Virus record (IMG/VR): IMGVR_UViG_3300008627_000034
Coordinates: 1 to 31,902 of that record
DNA length: 31,902 nt
Source: a virus
Strand: one strand, 5' to 3'
The notes below the pieces were generated by a model, which saw only the letters and a list, made by a program, of their open reading frames with translations, did not search any database and was not told where the DNA came from. The translations under genes and the position numbers were made by a program. The stretch's first letter is position 1; each line of letters starts with the position of its first letter. Below are positions 4,324 to 15,685 of the stretch, piece by piece.

Positions 4324-4416
4324 TTAAAAAAAATCGTGTTTAATTAAATTTGCTGGATTAATTGCCTTCTCTACTCTGGATTCAGCACTATCTCCATTGA
4401 TAAGTTTACTTTCCAT
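4324..4416 (-). CDS. Possible 30-aa linker ORF between the Mom-like gene and the helicase
   Basis: An ATG at 4416 opens a 30-codon frame (MESKLINGDSAESRVEKAIN, then 10 more residues ending KHDFF). It overlaps the last codons of the Mom-like gene by 11 nt and ends one base before the helicase ATG. It fills an otherwise empty 83-bp gap exactly. It may be a translational-coupling leader, or the 3' remnant of a gene replaced by the Mom-like insertion. No family is recognised and the frame could be chance. Confidence 0.35.
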   Translation of the reverse strand: MESKLINGDSAESRVEKAINPANLIKHDFF

Positions 4417-5272
4417 TAAAATCAAAAAACTCCTTTGCTTTATTATAAGTTGACACAACTCTACTATTCTTTATAGCTGATTTATTATATTTAAGTGGTG
4501 AATTACTTCTCCATTCTATCTCATTCACAAAACTCCAAGACCCATCTGTAAAATCTTTTTTCTTCCAAACCAATTCTTTATCCTTTGGATATGTTCTATT
4601 CCACTTAATATCAGTTTCTTTTAACAATCTTTTCTTTTCTCTCTTACTACATAAAAAATAAACATACCTAAATTGTCTACCTCTATAATGACTCCAATTA
4701 TTTTCAATTAAAAACTCTTTAGTAGGTCTTCTACCTATATTTAAATTTTTCTTATCCTTTAAATAAGATTGAGCTGTTCTTGGATGTACTCTCTCACCAG
4801 TATCAGATAGATATAAATCTGTAGTTATAAACCCACCATATAAAAAGTTAGTTGCTTGATAAACATAACCTGGTTTTCCCAATATACCATCTGCCCAAGT
4901 ATAAATCAATTTTATATCAGGTCTATTCTCCTTAACCCATTTAAACATTTTAGATAAAATTACTGATTCTGAATTTTTAGGTAATTCTTCTAACATACAC
5001 ATTTTACCTATCTCTAAATAGTCTTTAGATTTTAAAGAAGGGAATAAATTTTTAATTGTATTAAGTGGTTGAACTCCCCACCCAAGAGTAATAACCGCAA
5101 CAAGTTTATTATCAATAAAACTTCCAAGAAAATGTTTAGTTAATCTCGGCATTATTTTTGAATAATGATTATTAAACACAACATCTAACGCACTTACTTC
5201 ATCTATTTCAACAAAGTCTGATTCTTTTACATTTTCAATTGAATAAAATTCATGTTCACTATTACTCCCCAT
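4406..5272 (-). CDS. Mom-like DNA modification protein (GNAT-fold adenine acetamidation family)
   Basis: Mom of phage Mu modifies adenine N6 to a carbamoylmethyl form that blocks host restriction. This 289-aa protein carries blocks that I associate with Mom-like phage proteins: NHYSKIMPRLTKHFLGSF near the N-terminus, LEIGKMCMLEELPKNSES, then IKLIYTWADGILGKPGYVYQ followed by ATNFLYGG, and a late RQFRYVYFL. The hydrophobic strands with conserved E, S, D and Y fit a GNAT-like acyltransferase fold. I place the start at the ATG at 5272; an upstream in-frame start (5332) lies within the overlapping 59-aa gene and its extra residues match no family block. The C-terminal 90 residues, rich in Lys, Trp and Asn, go beyond the Mu Mom core. 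It is the only modification-type gene among replication genes. The assignment is from recalled motif resemblance, not a search. Confidence 0.65.
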   Translation of the reverse strand: MGSNSEHEFYSIENVKESDFVEIDEVSALDVVFNNHYSKIMPRLTKHFLGSFIDNKLVAVITLGWGVQPLNTIKNLFPSLKSKDYLEIGKMCMLEELPKNSESVILSKMFKWVKENRPDIKLIYTWADGILGKPGYVYQATNFLYGGFITTDLYLSDTGERVHPRTAQSYLKDKKNLNIGRRPTKEFLIENNWSHYRGRQFRYVYFLCSKREKKRLLKETDIKWNRTYPKDKELVWKKKDFTDGSWSFVNEIEWRSNSPLKYNKSAIKNSRVVSTYNKAKEFFDFNGK

Positions 5273-5441
5273 ACAATTCTTTCCTGCGTTTTTCCTCAAT
5301 TTCCTGCTGTCGTTTTTTTCTGTATCTATCACGTGCTACTTTACGTAATCTTTCCTGATTACGATAGTAATGTTCCATCTGCCATTTACGCTGGGCGTCT
5401 TGTTTCTCTTGTTCAGTCTTATATTTAACTTTTCTACCCAT
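5262..5441 (-). CDS. Small basic protein, MGRK/YY family, 59 aa, overlaps the Mom-like gene
   Basis: Unrecognised. It begins MGRKVKYKTEQEKQ and continues HYYRNQERLRKVARDRYRKK, ending KELYGE. Almost every third residue is Arg or Lys and it is probably one long helix. Its first 30 residues resemble the 48-aa protein at 2829-2683 (shared MGRK-x-KY-x-TE, then a YY-x-x-x-RE core). It overlaps the end of the 5'-nuclease gene by 8 nt, and its last codons overlap the Mom-like ATG by 11 nt, so the two are probably translationally coupled. In phage Mu the small Com protein gene overlaps mom in the same way and controls its translation, but Com has zinc-binding cysteines and this protein has none. A link in function is therefore speculation. 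Confidence 0.6.
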   Translation of the reverse strand: MGRKVKYKTEQEKQDAQRKWQMEHYYRNQERLRKVARDRYRKKRQQEIEEKRRKELYGE

Positions 5442-6486
5442 GACTCATTTTCGCATATCTATTTAATTGAGTAAAATTCTGATTTAACCAACTCTGTAAG
5501 TTTGGTAAAGAAGCGAAAAGTTTATCTTGTAAAAACATCTTTTCAAATTCCATTTTATTCAATTGTGTTATAGGTCTATCTATTCCTTCACGTATCCTCA
5601 ATTTAGTGGAATTTGGTATATCAACATCATGTAACTGCATTAATCTTTTATTAAGATCTAATTGAGATTCACACATCGATATACTTTCAAAAATTTTCAT
5701 TTCATCTTCCTTACCACGACATGATTGTACTATTTCTTCTATGGTTAAATCTTTATCTTTTTCTTGTATATGTGGAAATCTTTTTATGATAGTTTTTAAG
5801 CCCGCACCCTTAACTCCAGGTATATTATCAGATTTATCCCCTTCTAATATCCTATAAGTTAAAAAATTTCTTGAAGGAATACCATATTCTTCAAATATTT
5901 TATCTTCATCATAAATTTTCTTTTTAGTAGGAGAATAAATCTTAATTCTATCATTGACAAGTTGTAAAAAATCTTTATCAGTAGAACTAATGACAACATT
6001 TTTATCAAAAACTTGTTTAGATAAATAACCAATGGTATCATCCGCTTCAATATTATCTATTGATAAAATACTAAGTGGTAATGTTTCCAAATATTGAACA
6101 GTTCGCTGTAACTGTCGTAACATATTAGCTCGTTCTTCTTCTTTATCTGCAAAATCATATGCACGAACAAGTCTTTTATCTGTTTTACGACCTGCTTTAT
6201 ATTCAGGAAATAATTTACGGCGGCGGGTACTCCCACCCTTACCATCAAATACTATAATGGCTCGGGTGGGATTAAAAAGATGAATTACATAACCTATACT
6301 TTTTAGAAAACCAACTATTCCCCCAATATGAACACCGTCATCATTGAGAGTTGGTATAACACTAAATACTCGTATAAAAGTATTTAGGCCATCTATAATT
6401 AGTACTTTATCATTGAAGTGACCATCATCTAATTTACCGCCTTGTTTCTTTATCTGTTCAAGAATACTTACGTATCTATCATTCAT
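5434..6486 (-). CDS. 5'-3' exonuclease / flap nuclease, T4 RNase H-like
   Basis: Removes RNA primers and 5' flaps during lagging-strand synthesis. The metal-binding acidic residues of the FEN/PIN family are present in order (numbering from the ATG at 6486): LIIDG (D32), IIVFDG (D81), EADD (E147, D149, D150) and STDKD (D170, D172). These are followed by the helix-3-turn-helix entry GDKSDNIPGVKGAG (about 216-229). A basic STRRRKLFPEYKAGR segment at about 86-100 matches the arch region. The length (350 aa) is close to T4 RNase H (305 aa) and to the Pol I 5'-nuclease domain. I chose the ATG at 6486, which overlaps the UvsX stop by 8 nt; a longer frame starts 30 nt upstream but adds nothing conserved. 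Confidence in the family is high; the exact gene name is less certain. Confidence 0.9.
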   Translation of the reverse strand: MNDRYVSILEQIKKQGGKLDDGHFNDKVLIIDGLNTFIRVFSVIPTLNDDGVHIGGIVGFLKSIGYVIHLFNPTRAIIVFDGKGGSTRRRKLFPEYKAGRKTDKRLVRAYDFADKEEERANMLRQLQRTVQYLETLPLSILSIDNIEADDTIGYLSKQVFDKNVVISSTDKDFLQLVNDRIKIYSPTKKKIYDEDKIFEEYGIPSRNFLTYRILEGDKSDNIPGVKGAGLKTIIKRFPHIQEKDKDLTIEEIVQSCRGKEDEMKIFESISMCESQLDLNKRLMQLHDVDIPNSTKLRIREGIDRPITQLNKMEFEKMFLQDKLFASLPNLQSWLNQNFTQLNRYAKMSHG

Positions 6487-7594
6487 CAAGGGACTCATCT
6501 GTAATCTCCACATCATCTATACCAAGAGCGGATTTGTCATATTTTAATATGACTTTATCACATATGAGATTATAAACATATTCCTTTAAATCATTTTCTT
6601 CCAAAATTTTGTTGAAATCTTTAGATTGAAATTTCTTTTCATCTGTAATCTCACCAGTTTCGAAATCAATGATAGGTAATGTATACCAAGCACCAGATTG
6701 TTTCACTATATCGTAATCCTTCATTACAGTCAGCCAACTACCTTCATCATCTATTCCTGTTTCAAAATAGAGTGGAAATTCAGCTTTCCTAAGAGGAGGC
6801 CCAAGTCTATTTTTAACAACTTGTGCTAAAATAGTCATACCAATAACATTCTTCTTACTATCTTTTATCTGACCTTTATTTTTAAGTCTGATTCGTGTTG
6901 AAGCATGAAATGGTAATGCCTTTCCGCCACTTGTTGTCCAAGGGTCTCCAAACATAACACCTAACTTTTGACGTAACTGGTTGGTAAAGACCAAAGCTAT
7001 CCGTTGTCGTCCAATCATTTGAGTAATTTTTCTCATAGCTTTGGATATTATAATAGCTTTGGCCGTTGCCCAACCATCTTTATCAAAGTCAGCGTCTAAC
7101 TCAACTTTGGTAGTTGCTGCTGCAAGAGAATCCACTAATATAGTAACTAATCTATCTTTTTCAGACTCGCGAACTTTTGTTACGATTTCTTCAATCGCTT
7201 CAAAGACATCCTCTACAGTTTCGACATGAAGATATAACATATTCTTCATATCTAAACCAATTACTTCCAAAAACTCATGAGAAACAGATGTTTCAGTATC
7301 AATATAAACTGCAAGTCCACCTTTTTTCTGAGTTTCTGCGAGAATATGAGCTCCAAGTAATGATTTACCACTACTCTCAAGTCCATTCAATTCTGTAATT
7401 CTACCCACCGCAATACCACCATTAGGTTTATTTGATATTGCTACATCCAACATAGTTGAACCAGTAGATACAAAATCTTTTATATCTGTGGGAGTCTGAT
7501 CCGTGCCATCTAAGAAATAAGCTACTTTATAATCCTTGAACTTTTTATTCAAAGTACCTGCTAATACATCAGCAAGTTCATCTCTTACGCCCAT
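6479..7594 (-). CDS. uvsX: RecA-like recombinase, UvsX
   Basis: ATP-dependent strand-exchange protein that drives recombination-dependent replication and repair, working with the ssDNA-binding protein encoded directly upstream. Seen from the ATG at 7594 (371 aa): Walker A GLESSGKS (71-78), a conserved YIDTETS shortly after, Walker B TILVDS (151-156), and a loop region FTNQLRQKLGVMFGDPWTTS with GGKALPFHAS matching RecA L1/L2. The length matches T4 UvsX (about 390 aa). A longer frame to 7645 would run into the ssDNA-binding gene; the MGVRDELAD start lies 7 bp past that gene's stop. The gene lies in a tight ssb-uvsX-nuclease run, probably one transcript. Confidence 0.93.
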   Translation of the reverse strand: MGVRDELADVLAGTLNKKFKDYKVAYFLDGTDQTPTDIKDFVSTGSTMLDVAISNKPNGGIAVGRITELNGLESSGKSLLGAHILAETQKKGGLAVYIDTETSVSHEFLEVIGLDMKNMLYLHVETVEDVFEAIEEIVTKVRESEKDRLVTILVDSLAAATTKVELDADFDKDGWATAKAIIISKAMRKITQMIGRQRIALVFTNQLRQKLGVMFGDPWTTSGGKALPFHASTRIRLKNKGQIKDSKKNVIGMTILAQVVKNRLGPPLRKAEFPLYFETGIDDEGSWLTVMKDYDIVKQSGAWYTLPIIDFETGEITDEKKFQSKDFNKILEENDLKEYVYNLICDKVILKYDKSALGIDDVEITDESLDE

Positions 7595-7601
7595 TGTATT
7601 A

Positions 7602-8366
7602 CTATTCTTTATTAAAGAGTTCATCAAAAGCTGAAGAAACATCACTTACAGTTTCGGTTGTATCCTTAACTGTATCTGAAGTAACCGATTTCTCTTTAGT
7701 TTCTTCCTTCTCCTCACTTCCACCTTCAAGCCAAGTATTCAAAACTTCCGTAAGTTCATCATAACTCAACTCTTGATAGATTTCAGTAAGTTCCTTCTGA
7801 GTATCTGCTACAGCTTCCAACACATTCTTATCATCAGAAATTGGTGATTGCATTGGTTTTACTCGTATTGCAGTTGAAGGGAAACTTGCTCCAGTTTCTT
7901 CTGCTGTTTTGAACTCAACCGTAACATCACGTCCACCTACTGGATCCGTAATATCACCATAGTCTGGGTCAGCAATTACAGAAAGTAATTCTTGATATAC
8001 CAGCTTTCCAAATCCCCAAAACCTTACGCCTTGATTTTCTTCACCACGAACCAAAACGGGTGCATAAGTTCTCATTTTAGCTTCAAGTTTCTTACCAAGA
8101 CGATAATCATCACGATTACCTGAAGATTTTAGTTTTTGAGCAAATTCTTCAATCGGGTCTGGACGACCAAATGAAATTGGTGAAAGATATGACTTTCCAC
8201 CTAAATCATAATGAAAAAATAACTCAATAAAAGGATTGTCCTTATTAAATTTATAAGGTACAATTCTGATTTGTTGTTTGCCTGGTTGAGGTTTCCAAAG
8301 ATTTGAAGTTCTTTGGGTTGTTGATTGTAACTGATTTAGTCGTTTTTTTACTAAACTTAAATCCAT
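7602..8366 (-). CDS. gp32: ssDNA-binding protein, T4 gp32-like
   Basis: Coats single-stranded DNA and organises replication and recombination proteins. The 254-aa protein has the gp32 plan: a basic N-terminal segment (DLSLVKKRLNQLQSTTQ), a core OB-like region with WKPQPGKQQIRIVPYKFN, the FFHYDLGGKSYLSP strand and GVRFWGFGKLVYQELLS, and an acidic Ser/Thr/Glu-rich tail from about residue 215 that ends FDELFNKE. Such tails bind partner proteins in the family. T4 gp32 is 301 aa, so this one is short, and I do not see the Cys/His zinc cluster of T4 gp32. A strong AGGAG lies 8 nt before the ATG, and the longest upstream gap of this region (118 bp) holds a candidate promoter, so expression is probably high. 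Confidence 0.85.
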   Translation of the reverse strand: MDLSLVKKRLNQLQSTTQRTSNLWKPQPGKQQIRIVPYKFNKDNPFIELFFHYDLGGKSYLSPISFGRPDPIEEFAQKLKSSGNRDDYRLGKKLEAKMRTYAPVLVRGEENQGVRFWGFGKLVYQELLSVIADPDYGDITDPVGGRDVTVEFKTAEETGASFPSTAIRVKPMQSPISDDKNVLEAVADTQKELTEIYQELSYDELTEVLNTWLEGGSEEKEETKEKSVTSDTVKDTTETVSDVSSAFDELFNKE

Positions 8367-8484: not shown

Positions 8485-9360
8485 TTAGAAGTTAAACGTT
8501 CCAATTTTCTTTGAATTTTCTATAACTTTTAAAGCGTGATTTAAATAAAATCTACCAGCTTTTGGTGAACCATTCTCTTTACCATCTGATTCTCCGAGTG
8601 GTTTAATCCATAAATATGCATCACAATTCTCAGATTCAGTTTTAAATGTTGGTAATTCACCAATTGCACAAACTTCAGGATTACACCAATCTCCAGTATA
8701 ACCCATTCCATTTCGTGAAGTATCTATTATATATGATTTATTCGTTTGTTTTGAAATTTCATCACCATAAGTAATACATTGTTTAGTAGAAACAAAATTT
8801 GATACATTCAAACTAAATCCTTTAAATAACTTCTTATCAAATTCTGAAAGTAATTCTATTACTTCTTCAACATCTAACCAATATGGATGTCCAACATCTA
8901 AATATATTGACGCATTTTTATTATTTTTTAAAATTTCTAAGCTTTTTTTACAAAGGTCAAATCTCTTAACCTTATCATCGTATTTCATTTGATGTGTTTG
9001 TGGAAGAGCATCTGGTTCAAATATAACTATAGGATTACTATCTCCAATTCCTTTAGACACCTCTGTAATAAATTCTAAATATTTCGTATAAGTCTGTTCT
9101 CCCCCCTTAGAGAAATAACCTAAATCTCTACCTGGAATTGAATATAAGACCAAAACCGCTATATTTTCTTCTTTAGTCTCAATAAAAGTTTTAAATACTC
9201 TATTGAGTAATCGTCTTATTCTACCACTAACATTTTTAACTGTTTTATACGGTGAGGATCCATACCAAAATCCCATTGGCTGATTGTATAACTTTCCCAA
9301 TTCTGGGTATTGTTTTGATAAATTTGCATGTCTATCAAAACTAGGTTTATATAACTTCAC
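8485..9360 (-). CDS. Glycoside hydrolase family 6-like beta-1,4-glucanase
   Basis: GH6 enzymes hydrolyse beta-1,4-glucans with inversion. This 291-aa protein is the length of a bare GH6 catalytic domain and keeps its signature blocks: VLYSIPGRDLG (D79, matching Cel6A D175), IVIFEPDAL (D117, matching the acid D221), IYLDVGHPYW (155-158 DVGH), FSLNVSNF, YIIDTSRNGMG, WCNPEVCAIGELPT and DAYLWIKPLGESDG (D259, matching D401). All catalytic aspartates are therefore present. I see no signal peptide, carbohydrate-binding module or linker, so export would need lysis or virion packaging. The start is GTG at 9360; an in-frame stop lies three codons upstream. It ends an overlapping gene run, 6 bp after the 136-aa gene. 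Its role may be polysaccharide degradation on host cells; the family call is strong, the substrate unknown. Confidence 0.85.
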   Translation of the reverse strand: MKLYKPSFDRHANLSKQYPELGKLYNQPMGFWYGSSPYKTVKNVSGRIRRLLNRVFKTFIETKEENIAVLVLYSIPGRDLGYFSKGGEQTYTKYLEFITEVSKGIGDSNPIVIFEPDALPQTHQMKYDDKVKRFDLCKKSLEILKNNKNASIYLDVGHPYWLDVEEVIELLSEFDKKLFKGFSLNVSNFVSTKQCITYGDEISKQTNKSYIIDTSRNGMGYTGDWCNPEVCAIGELPTFKTESENCDAYLWIKPLGESDGKENGSPKAGRFYLNHALKVIENSKKIGTFNF

Positions 9361-9366
9361 TTTATT

Positions 9367-9777
9367 TTATGATGAGCTCCAAGTTGAACAATTTATAATT
9401 TTATACAATTTAGTTTTTATAACAACTAACCCATCTTCATTGTAGAGTAAAACTGAATTTTTATAATTCTCCCAGGGTATGATAAATGTTTTATCTAAAA
9501 CCCCATCATTTAATTCTCTTATGACATCATTGAGGGCGTTAATTGTATAGAGTGTATTGGTTTGTTTTTTTCTATGTAGAGAAATTGTATTAGGAATACC
9601 TTCCATAAAATTATCATCGTATTCTACATTGTAGGTACACATTAAATTATTAGGTGTCTCTACATCTTCAAAAGTATAAATTTTGTCATATAATATATCA
9701 TTACAAGAAATAATGATATCAATTGATTCGTTTAACGTTGGTTTTTTAGTAAATGTACAGAGTAATTGAGTTTTCAT
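9367..9777 (-). CDS. Conserved-looking hypothetical protein, 136 aa
   Basis: No function recognised. The frame starts at an ATG that shares its A with the stop of the 685-aa gene (TAATG), so translation is coupled. The protein is soluble-looking, with alternating short hydrophobic strands (LLCTFTKKPTL, IDIIISCNDILYDKIYTF) and a segment NTISLHRKKQTNTLYTINAL that looks structured and conserved. It ends in a serine-rich CSTWSSS. It has no signal peptide, no membrane span and no obvious catalytic motif. The position between the 685-aa protein and the GH6-like gene suggests it is expressed with both. Confidence 0.7.
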   Translation of the reverse strand: MKTQLLCTFTKKPTLNESIDIIISCNDILYDKIYTFEDVETPNNLMCTYNVEYDDNFMEGIPNTISLHRKKQTNTLYTINALNDVIRELNDGVLDKTFIIPWENYKNSVLLYNEDGLVVIKTKLYKIINCSTWSSS

Positions 9778-13101: not shown

Positions 13102-13602
13102 TTAATTTACCTTTGTAATCTTTTCATACCAAGGACTAAACCATTCCAATACATCTCCCTGACTTCCATATACTTTTAATAAATCTCTTTTCTTATATAA
13201 TATATCCTCAGATAACCTTTCTTTACCCTTATCAAATTGCCATAATAATTCTGGTCGTAAATGGTTTAATATATCGTGTAAAGCTCTATGTCTTGGATGT
13301 CCGTATTCACCTTGTTTATTATGTGTTACTATTTTTTTATAATCTCTTTCTCTCAATACTCTTAATAATTCATAGATAAGTTTTTCTCTATGGTAATCCT
13401 CTCCACCCTTATATCCTGTCCAATGTTCGTAATCCTCTATACCTATATATTTCATAGACTCTCTAAATTCTTCTCGTCTGACTTCATTATGATACTCATC
13501 TATTACCACTACCTTATACTCGTTGGGATGTGATAATAATTCAGCTCCACCAAATAGTGCTTCATCATCAGGGTGTGATACAATCATTATCTTGTCAATC
13601 AC
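13102..13602 (-). CDS. PIG-L/LmbE-family N-acetylglucosamine-type deacetylase
   Basis: Zinc enzymes of this family remove the N-acetyl group from GlcNAc-containing substrates. Seen: the metal/catalytic signature IVSHPDDEALFGG at the N-terminus (His, Asp, Asp), the second metal site EYGHPRHRALHDIL, and KKIVTHNKQ between them. The length (166 aa) is on the short side for the family (about 180-230 aa), with the C-terminal lobe reduced. The start is a GTG at 13602 overlapping the nagB stop by 8 nt; it gives MIDKIMIVSHPDDE, the usual family opening. An ATG five codons later is the alternative. The gene follows nagB, so the two probably act on related amino sugars. The acceptor (free sugar, glycolipid, cell-wall fragment or nucleotide sugar) is unknown. 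Confidence 0.88.
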   Translation of the reverse strand: MIDKIMIVSHPDDEALFGGAELLSHPNEYKVVVIDEYHNEVRREEFRESMKYIGIEDYEHWTGYKGGEDYHREKLIYELLRVLRERDYKKIVTHNKQGEYGHPRHRALHDILNHLRPELLWQFDKGKERLSEDILYKKRDLLKVYGSQGDVLEWFSPWYEKITKVN

Positions 13603-14266
13603 AATAAAATACCGTGCAATTTGGATGTTCTTGTAAAAATGAGGCTGGTACTTCAGGAGTTATATCTCCATTAATTGCCCTATCTAAAATTTCTTTCTTA
13701 TGACTACCTTGTGCTACTAAATAAATTCTTTTAGCTTTCAGTATGGTTTCTATTCCCATTGTTATTGCTTGTGTAGGAACTTCATCTATAGAATCAAAAA
13801 ATCTACTATTATCCTTAATTGTATTCTCTGTTAAATCAACCACATGAGTTTTTGATTCTCTTCGCGTTCCTGGTTCATTAAATGCAATATGACCATTAGT
13901 TCCAATACCTAATATCTGAATATCTATACCACCATAGGCTTCTATTAAATCATCATATAAATCTACTCCATTTAAACTTGGAAAAAATCGTTTTTTAAAT
14001 GTTAAATTACCAAATAGGTGTTCATACATAAAATGATTGTATGATTGTGGATGCCAACCATTCAATCCAACATATTCATCAAGATTAAAAGTAACCGTTT
14101 CAGAAAAGTTTGTATTTCTCATCTTTGATAATTCTTTATAGATTCCAATAGGTGTTGAACCTGTAGCTAATCCTAAAACTGGATTTTGATGTCTTTTTAC
14201 CAAATCTCGTATATTTGATGCTATTAAATGACAAACTTTTTGATATGGGTTATTTTTAATCCTCAT
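13595..14266 (-). CDS. nagB: Glucosamine-6-phosphate deaminase
   Basis: NagB converts glucosamine-6-phosphate to fructose-6-phosphate and ammonia, reversibly. Seen: the phosphate loop LGLATGSTPIGIYKEL, the catalytic TFNLDEYVGL (Asp as in E. coli D72), the YNHFMYEHLF helix, GIGTNGHIAFNEPGTR (His and Glu equal to E. coli H143 and E148; the D141 place is Asn, as in Bacillus-type NagB), and the late LVAQGSHKKEIL. The length of 223 aa is close to the shorter Gram-positive type (about 240 aa), and the allosteric C-terminal part of the E. coli enzyme is absent. The ATG overlaps the ThyX stop by 11 nt and the stop overlaps the PIG-L start, so it is embedded in a coupled operon. A nagB in a phage is unusual. 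Confidence 0.93.
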   Translation of the reverse strand: MRIKNNPYQKVCHLIASNIRDLVKRHQNPVLGLATGSTPIGIYKELSKMRNTNFSETVTFNLDEYVGLNGWHPQSYNHFMYEHLFGNLTFKKRFFPSLNGVDLYDDLIEAYGGIDIQILGIGTNGHIAFNEPGTRRESKTHVVDLTENTIKDNSRFFDSIDEVPTQAITMGIETILKAKRIYLVAQGSHKKEILDRAINGDITPEVPASFLQEHPNCTVFYCD

Positions 14267-14978
14267 TCAAATAAACTTCACTCCACAATTTAGTGGTTTC
14301 TGGAAAAATTTCCAACATAATTTCTTTTAATACTTTTGCGTATTGTTGTATTTCCCATTGAGCGGTAGGTTCATCTCTAAGTTCTATAAAGTTCATAATA
14401 GCTTGAAATGATGCCGTCCAATAAACTTCTGTATATTGTGATAATGGTAATACAATTCTTGCTTGTTCTTTAGCCATACCAGCATTTACCATTGATTCAT
14501 ATGCCATTTCAACATTATTCATAAATGTTTTATAAATCATACTCATTCGTTTTTGTTGTAAATCATCTAACTCACCTTCAGAAGCTTGTTTATTATCTTC
14601 TGATTGTTTTCTCCAAACTTCTGGATAATAATACTCTTTTACTGGAACATACCGACCACTAATTTCGTTCCATGGTGTATCTTTAGTTGGATAGTTTGAA
14701 GTTGCTTCAATTCCCACCAAATGGCGAAATAATTGTCTCATCACAAATTCAGGAGCTTTAATATTAAGTTGTGTTTGTAAATGCCTAAATGGACTAAAAT
14801 GTTTATTTTTTACTAAATATCTAACTAATTTCGCATCCTTTTCGTCCCACACTTCCTTCCTTTTACCAAACGATACTCGAGCAGAATTAACTACTGTTAA
14901 ATCATTTCCCATAACACCTTCTACTCTAATATGCCCCTTATCTAATATTTTTATTTCTTTACCTTTATAACTTTCCAT
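14256..14978 (-). CDS. thyX: Flavin-dependent thymidylate synthase, ThyX
   Basis: Makes dTMP from dUMP using FAD, NADPH and methylenetetrahydrofolate, complementing the reductase NrdJ. Seen: NDLTVVNSARVSFGKR near the N-terminus (nucleotide-binding part), FSPFRHLQTQLNIKAPEFV, then the ThyX signature region MRQLFRHLVGIEATSNYPTK followed by DTPWNEISGRY, where the classical RHRxxSxNExSxRY is stretched by an insertion. The late LPLSQYTEVYWTASFQAIMN and FIELR follow the family. The length (240 aa) is normal. Its start overlaps the homing endonuclease by 28 nt. It has an extra N-terminal MESYKGKE compared with the thyX remnant upstream, which suggests the two copies have different histories. It should be functional. 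Confidence 0.93.
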   Translation of the reverse strand: MESYKGKEIKILDKGHIRVEGVMGNDLTVVNSARVSFGKRKEVWDEKDAKLVRYLVKNKHFSPFRHLQTQLNIKAPEFVMRQLFRHLVGIEATSNYPTKDTPWNEISGRYVPVKEYYYPEVWRKQSEDNKQASEGELDDLQQKRMSMIYKTFMNNVEMAYESMVNAGMAKEQARIVLPLSQYTEVYWTASFQAIMNFIELRDEPTAQWEIQQYAKVLKEIMLEIFPETTKLWSEVYLNED

Positions 14979-15685
14979 TGTTTATATTCTCCATGTTTTA
15001 ATAGTGGTTCTGACCAAACTTTCCCTTTTAAGTATTCACAGATTGACTTTCTACCATAAAATTCTTTAACTACACCTACGGGTGATGTTAAAATAAAAGT
15101 TCTTGTCGTTGATTTTATTTTTTTTTCTATTTGTGTTTTTGTTTGTTTTTTTCCACTAACTCGCAGTGAAAATTTTTCTTTAAATCCAGTAGAATTCCAC
15201 ATCTGTTTAGATTTTTCTCCAATTTTTTTCTTAGTTTCGTCAGTATGTGAATGTCCCCATTTTTTATACTTGCTTCTGTCGGTCTTCTTCCAATATTTTT
15301 GTACAGATTCTCTAATTTTCTGTTTATGTTCTTCTGTTTTTTTACGTCCTGTGTGAGCTTTACTATAGTTTTTTCGTATTTGTTCTTTATGTGGATTATT
15401 GGTAAATAAATCTCCACCAGTTCCCCCTATATGAATATTATATCTTGGATTTAATTTTTCTATCCACTTAATTTCAGCCTTATCTACTTCATCCTTTGTG
15501 TTACATTCTTCTAAAATTACACAATCAAAATTTTTTCTACCATATTTTTTGATTGCTTGAGTTAATATTTTCCCACTACCTATATAACGCATACCACTAA
15601 CAGTTCTCATATTATTAGTATTTTTATGCTGACCTATATACAACTTACCATTTATTTTATTTATAGTTTTATACACTACAAACAT
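14951..15685 (-). CDS. GIY-YIG homing endonuclease (Seg-like)
   Basis: A free-standing selfish nuclease. The N-terminal GIY-YIG domain shows VVYKTINKINGKLYIGQH, RYIGSGKILTQAIKKYG, FDCVILEECNT with a following KWIEKLNPRYNI and the terminal GGTGGD. The DNA-binding half has NUMOD3-like repeats (SKAHTGRKKTEEHKQKI; GHSHTDETKKKIGEKS) and a C-terminal NUMOD1-like helix (FYGRKSICEYLKGKV). The length of 244 aa matches T4 Seg proteins. It has its own AGGAGA ribosome site 7 nt before the ATG and its own ATATTTAT element in the 54-bp leader, as expected of an inserted cassette. It lies between a broken 5' end of one thyX and a full thyX, so thyX is its likely target. Confidence 0.92.
   Translation of the reverse strand: MFVVYKTINKINGKLYIGQHKNTNNMRTVSGMRYIGSGKILTQAIKKYGRKNFDCVILEECNTKDEVDKAEIKWIEKLNPRYNIHIGGTGGDLFTNNPHKEQIRKNYSKAHTGRKKTEEHKQKIRESVQKYWKKTDRSKYKKWGHSHTDETKKKIGEKSKQMWNSTGFKEKFSLRVSGKKQTKTQIEKKIKSTTRTFILTSPVGVVKEFYGRKSICEYLKGKVWSEPLLKHGEYKQWKVIKVKK

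Follow-up and report, generated by a model that had tools for sequence, protein, structure and literature searches.

Textbooks describe GH6 as a family of secreted cellulases, and a GH6 gene without a signal peptide in a T4-like phage raises the question of what such an enzyme does for the virus and where it acts. The gene lies in a record that we refer to as the window, which is the whole of IMG/VR entry IMGVR_UViG_3300008627_000034 (31,902 nucleotides, 31.9 kb) and represents a fragment of a T4-like myovirus.

The window gene and its predicted fold

The gene occupies 8485..9360 on the minus strand, starts with GTG and encodes a protein of 291 aa. Pfam PF01341 (Glyco_hydro_6), whose curated cut-off is 27 bits, matched this protein with 145.6 bits (E 3.7e-42) over profile positions 19–300 of 305. 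This score rules out a chance or mis-framed ORF at 8485–9360, and it bears out the GH6 assignment made in an earlier, sequence-only reading of the window, which had proposed the profile search. The catalytic and supporting residues of the family (Y73, R78, D79, D117, D155, K253, E257 and D259) are all present and all aligned in M. tuberculosis Cel6, the best solved relative. In the translation, D79 falls in the YSIPGRD block (codon 9124..9126, minus strand, as for the codons that follow), D117 in the EPD block (IFEPD; 9010..9012), D155 in the YLDVGH block (8896..8898) and D259 in the GESDG block (8584..8586). These four residues are invariant in the viral relatives, and D79, D117 and D259 are where the sequence-only reading had put them. 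D117 is the predicted catalytic acid and D259 the predicted base-side Asp, roles which we take from general knowledge of GH6 and not from model coordinates. The conserved aromatic residues W32, W161, W225 and W251 are kept as well. On these sequence grounds, the window gene is confirmed as a member of GH6 with a complete predicted active site, and its predicted activity is the hydrolysis of beta-1,4-glucan with inversion.

The ORF coincides exactly with the 8485–9360 of the sequence-only reading, which named no strand, and the protein begins at the GH6 domain with neither N-terminal extension nor signal peptide, a bare domain as first described. It lacks the features of secreted cellular GH6 enzymes, namely an export signal or N-terminal extension and two disulphide pairs; the disulphide partner positions 80, 124 and 262 are not Cys.

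An AlphaFold2 model of the protein, built with 54 sequences (mean pLDDT 89.6, pTM 0.90), has the distorted beta/alpha barrel seen in Cel6 structures. It superposed on M. tuberculosis Cel6 (1UP0) with a Z of 34.5 and an rmsd of 2.0 Å, with 277 of 293 residues aligned (VIA-align), and on the Thermobifida fusca Cel6A endoglucanase E2 (1TML) with a Z of 32.5, while Foldseek gave a TM of 0.87 to Cel6 endoglucanases. Against tunnel cellobiohydrolases the Z was about 30, with ~80 residues of those larger enzymes unmatched; about 279 of 363 residues of T. reesei Cel6A aligned with the model. Because the model aligns almost fully to endo-type Cel6 and leaves ~80 residues of the tunnel enzymes without a counterpart, the cleft is probably of the open endoglucanase type with short loops, as judged indirectly from aligned-residue counts. 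The sequence-only reading had asked whether an active-site tunnel is kept, and the model points instead to an open cleft.

M. tuberculosis Cel6/CelA1 (Rv0062; PDB 1UP0, 1UOZ) resembles the window protein in fold, active site and short endo-type loops, at 36–41% identity depending on the method. Unlike the window protein, it is a secreted cellular enzyme with both family disulphides and a role in biofilm dispersal. The T. fusca enzyme, also cellular and secreted, shares the GH6 endoglucanase fold at about 27% identity.

Gene setting and viral relatives

The gene belongs to a co-directional run in the order thyX, NagB-like, PIG-L, polA-like, a 685-aa gene, a 136-aa gene, GH6, gp32, uvsX and 5'-3' exonuclease, followed in the same direction by Mom, DnaB and a class II ribonucleotide reductase with an intein. 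A 6 bp gap separates GH6 from the preceding 136-aa gene of unknown function (9367..9777, minus strand), and downstream lie the genes for a gp32-like single-strand DNA-binding protein (7602..8366, minus strand) and a UvsX-like recombinase (6479..7645, minus strand). The flanking gp32, uvsX and exonuclease genes agree with the replication-region context proposed earlier, and the sheath, baseplate-hub and S74 fibre genes lie farther upstream in the same direction, so the statement that GH6 does not adjoin the fibre genes also holds. Its placement at the end of an amino-sugar/nucleotide run needs correction, since the gene sits mid-run, between the 136-aa gene and gp32. That run includes genes for a PIG-L family deacetylase (13102..13602, minus strand) and a glucosamine-6-phosphate deaminase (NagB)-like protein (13595..14266, minus strand), and this pair (13102–14266) recurs upstream of GH6 in several phages of the window's lineage, lineage A. 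Also on the minus strand, the class II (B12) reductase gene (2–2677) is split by an intein with an HNH endonuclease domain, a Mom-type DNA modification protein (4406–5332; 166.9 bits) is encoded between the helicase and exonuclease genes, and a GIY-YIG homing endonuclease gene (14951–15685) overlaps the thyX start. The T4 late promoter TATAAATA, considered as a timing clue, was no more frequent in the window than expected by chance and was set aside as uninformative.

Successive IMG/VR scans raised the number of GH6 loci in viral contigs from 4 to 20 and then to at least 80, and a scan with neutral motifs found 173 viral contigs encoding GH6 relatives, a few of them outside the window's group. 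GH6-bearing contigs reach 339,794 and 216,820 bp, and the PF01341 profile matched 54 of 54 relatives. As the comparison set we used 88 distinct aquatic T4-like proteins (61 + 27). In lineage A, the 136-aa gene directly precedes GH6 in 42/42 loci, and gp32, uvsX and the exonuclease gene follow, in some loci beyond inserted genes. In most loci of lineage B, a peptide deformylase gene precedes GH6 (adjacent or one gene off) and opposite-strand genes follow. Gaps or overlaps between GH6 and the preceding gene are short in most loci. These arrangements are operons in which GH6 precedes gp32-uvsX (lineage A) or follows peptide deformylase (lineage B). In L079:5968–6909 and L086:5968–6921, GH6 carries a Cys/His-rich, zinc-knuckle-like C-terminal extension.

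Flavobacterium phage immuto, Microcystis phage Mel-JY01 and the uncultured 484-kb LR756508 share the lineage-A backbone and have the 136-aa gene, gp32 and uvsX without GH6. In Mel-JY01 an S-adenosylmethionine-lyase-like gene occupies the GH6 slot, so that the slot between the 136-aa gene and gp32 seems to be an accessory hotspot. A search of 50,697 GenBank phage records yielded a single convincing phage GH6, which is tail-linked and comes from Streptomyces phage Gilgamesh; no isolate T4-like phage matched the group's GH6. Gilgamesh gp72 and the GH6 of contig L253 are phage-encoded, as in the window, but they have an extra N-terminal region, adjoin tail genes, keep one family disulphide and fall outside the aquatic viral group on the tree. 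GenBank record MT836874.1 (L006, 1–10474), labelled 'Bacteriophage sp.', was rejected as a phage example; its other ORFs are bacterial-looking (a TonB-type receptor, an AraC-type regulator), and we read it as a stretch of bacterial DNA that carries a GH6 gene. A Peribacteria match (L102), with a long SLH-GH6 protein, an export-like N-terminus and cellular gene surroundings, was rejected as a phage contig too.

A maximum-likelihood tree of 100 rows placed 62 group sequences on one side of a branch with an SH-aLRT of 99, and 33 cellular plus 5 other viral or tail-type GH6 sequences on the other; the tree was unrooted and made by a quick method, its cellular rows were those nearest the query, and fungal GH6 was left out. 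The nearest cellular GH6 sequences come mostly from Actinobacteria. With this branch support, the aquatic T4-like GH6 proteins appear as one virus-only group apart from their nearest cellular relatives in the unrooted tree. When genomes were scanned with virus-type motifs, neither a cellular donor nor any cellular or prophage copy turned up; a scan with general motifs found actinobacterial and candidate-phylum GH6 outside the viral group on a tree from which fungal GH6 is absent.

The catalytic set is invariant across both viral sets (61 + 27 proteins). Median dN/dS in four subclades was 0.18, 0.07, 0.08 and 0.10, rough ratios because some dS values are high, and by this measure the viral group is under purifying selection. 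Disulphide pair 1 was present in 0/88 viral and 81/81 cellular proteins, and pair 2 in 12/88 and 80/81. One viral motif of the earlier scan excluded Cys at position 80, and the comparison was repeated with neutral motifs; pair 1 was still absent from the group, and pair 2 occurred in 10/27. In the cellular proteins at least 37 residues precede the GH6 domain, and most of these N-terminal extensions contain a hydrophobic stretch, whereas the viral proteins begin at the domain and have no secretory N-terminus. In the L033–L062 subclade (21 of the first 61 proteins), W225 and C226 in window numbering are replaced by H and F, which possibly reflects a changed sugar subsite. This large virus-specific group, with its two conserved operon settings and its disulphide loss, had escaped the sequence-only reading.

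Several phages also offer clues to hosts and sugar metabolism. One lineage-B phage has an IscU that is 75–83% identical to gamma- and betaproteobacterial IscU, which suggests proteobacterial hosts for that lineage. The lineage-B loci L020:13742–14140 and L092:4808–5137 code for IscU and a 7Fe-type ferredoxin that closely resemble proteobacterial proteins. A cyanophage origin was considered and rejected, psbA (PF00124) being found in 0/49 records, many of them fragments. A T4-like lineage-A relative (the 131,840-bp record of L049 and L255–L261) encodes NeuB, a cytidylyltransferase, GDP-mannose dehydratase, a pfkB-family sugar kinase, glutamine synthetase and a GH108-type endolysin separate from GH6. 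Many of its genes are glycosyltransferase-like by eye, within a long run that includes surface-glycan functions.

Possible roles of the enzyme

We tentatively favor, at somewhat less than an even chance, an endoglucanase of cytosolic origin that reaches host matrix glucan when the cell lyses; the substrate, the host and the release are what we infer. During infection, synthesis would take place in the host cytoplasm, and the enzyme would fold without disulphides and stay inside the cell until a separate phage endolysin opened it and set the enzyme free in bulk. Once outside, it could cut beta-1,4-glucan (cellulose-like) in the matrix or capsule that surrounds the lysed cell and neighboring cells, and removal of this glucan would keep virions from being trapped and expose new hosts. 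In favor of this explanation we count the Pfam match, the Cel6 fold, the invariant catalytic residues and the low dN/dS, together with the disulphide loss, the domain-only N-terminus, the close spacing or overlap with the gene before it in most loci and the separate GH108-type endolysin of the 131-kb relative. Rv0062, the nearest characterized relative, disperses biofilm via cellulose hydrolysis (PMC10816823). Host cellulose is also required by Erwinia phage S6, whose gp95 is a verified cellulase and likewise a phage beta-1,4-glucanase tied to host cellulose; unlike the window GH6, gp95 is a multi-domain GH5 enzyme discussed in relation to adsorption (PMC9544554). Against release at lysis stands the position of GH6 among replication genes, as a lysis-released enzyme is usually expected among late genes. 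The sugar-metabolism genes of these phages, which could indicate an intracellular role, and the H/F subclade, which hints at a changed substrate, also count against it. The sequence-only reading had offered a host-glucan role at lysis, which is plausible.

The main rival keeps the enzyme at work in the infected cell, on intermediates containing beta-1,4-glucan or on nascent chains, where it would block or remodel the assembly of host surface glycan (for example against superinfection) or feed the phage sugar pathway jointly with the NagB-like and PIG-L enzymes. The absence of an export signal, the loss of disulphides and the operon shared with replication genes fit such a role. So do the sugar genes: in the window and several relatives the run includes NagB-like and PIG-L genes upstream of GH6, and the 131-kb relative encodes NeuB, a CMP-sugar transferase, GDP-mannose dehydratase and numerous probable glycosyltransferases. 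However, NagB and PIG-L are not beside GH6 in many relatives (e.g., L004 and L005), and we know of no cytosolic beta-1,4-glucan substrate established for the likely hosts; we regard this role as somewhat unlikely. A narrower version, in which the virus-only subfamily shuts down or remodels surface-glycan assembly inside the cell as counter-defence or superinfection exclusion and does not digest cellulose, is improbable in our estimate. The S-adenosylmethionine-lyase-like gene in the Mel-JY01 slot represents a family with a known anti-restriction role.

The remaining explanations are less probable again. Glucan breakdown might yield sugar for phage production, an idea proposed for viral GH6 from Mariana Trench sediments (PMC8725595) and in keeping with the other metabolic genes of these phages; yet an enzyme without export cannot reach an outside polymer before lysis, and no glucan uptake gene was noticed nearby on inspection. 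We think a nutritional role quite unlikely. Opening of the host capsule on entry is the common mode of phage depolymerases, and the GH6 genes of Gilgamesh and L253 do adjoin tail genes. The window gene and its group, by contrast, are neither encoded among nor fused to tail or fibre structural genes but sit with replication genes or behind peptide deformylase, and nearly all members lack an extra virion-attachment domain (two have a short C-terminal extension), which makes a virion-borne enzyme very doubtful. Least probable is a GH6 fold that is a cellulase no more and now acts on a different beta-1,4 or similar glycan, such as an amino-sugar polymer or a DNA or envelope glycan. The change of W225 to H in one subclade, the long divergence from cellular GH6 and the amino-sugar and DNA-modification genes nearby would suit this, but in the window protein the GH6 catalytic set and all four conserved tryptophans are intact.

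Prior reports and significance

The Mariana Trench study reported GH6 in a viral scaffold as an auxiliary metabolic gene and traced its carbohydrate genes to bacterial donors; compared by description and not by sequence, the likeness to our group is GH6 in a viral scaffold, whereas that report concerns a single gene and its text contains no virus-only group, operon or cytosolic form (PMC8725595). The tail-linked GH6 of Gilgamesh is already annotated as a glycoside hydrolase. We found no widespread virus-only cytosolic GH6 group in the libraries and open-access literature that we searched. The group is missing from the phage-protein libraries PHROGs, where it was unmatched, and BFVD, where a structure search gave no GH6-like structure (best E 1.3e-4, TM 0.33). 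This virus-only branch, present in well over 100 sequences from uncultivated aquatic phages, is apparently undescribed.

The group's enzymes should express in the cytoplasm of E. coli, so their function is directly testable. Because a diverse group has dropped export and most disulphides while holding its active site under purifying selection and its genes in conserved operon positions, this conserved, export-less viral GH6 implies that beta-1,4-glucan, or something similar, matters in many aquatic phage-bacterium encounters, in a setting, water, where cellulose is seldom considered.
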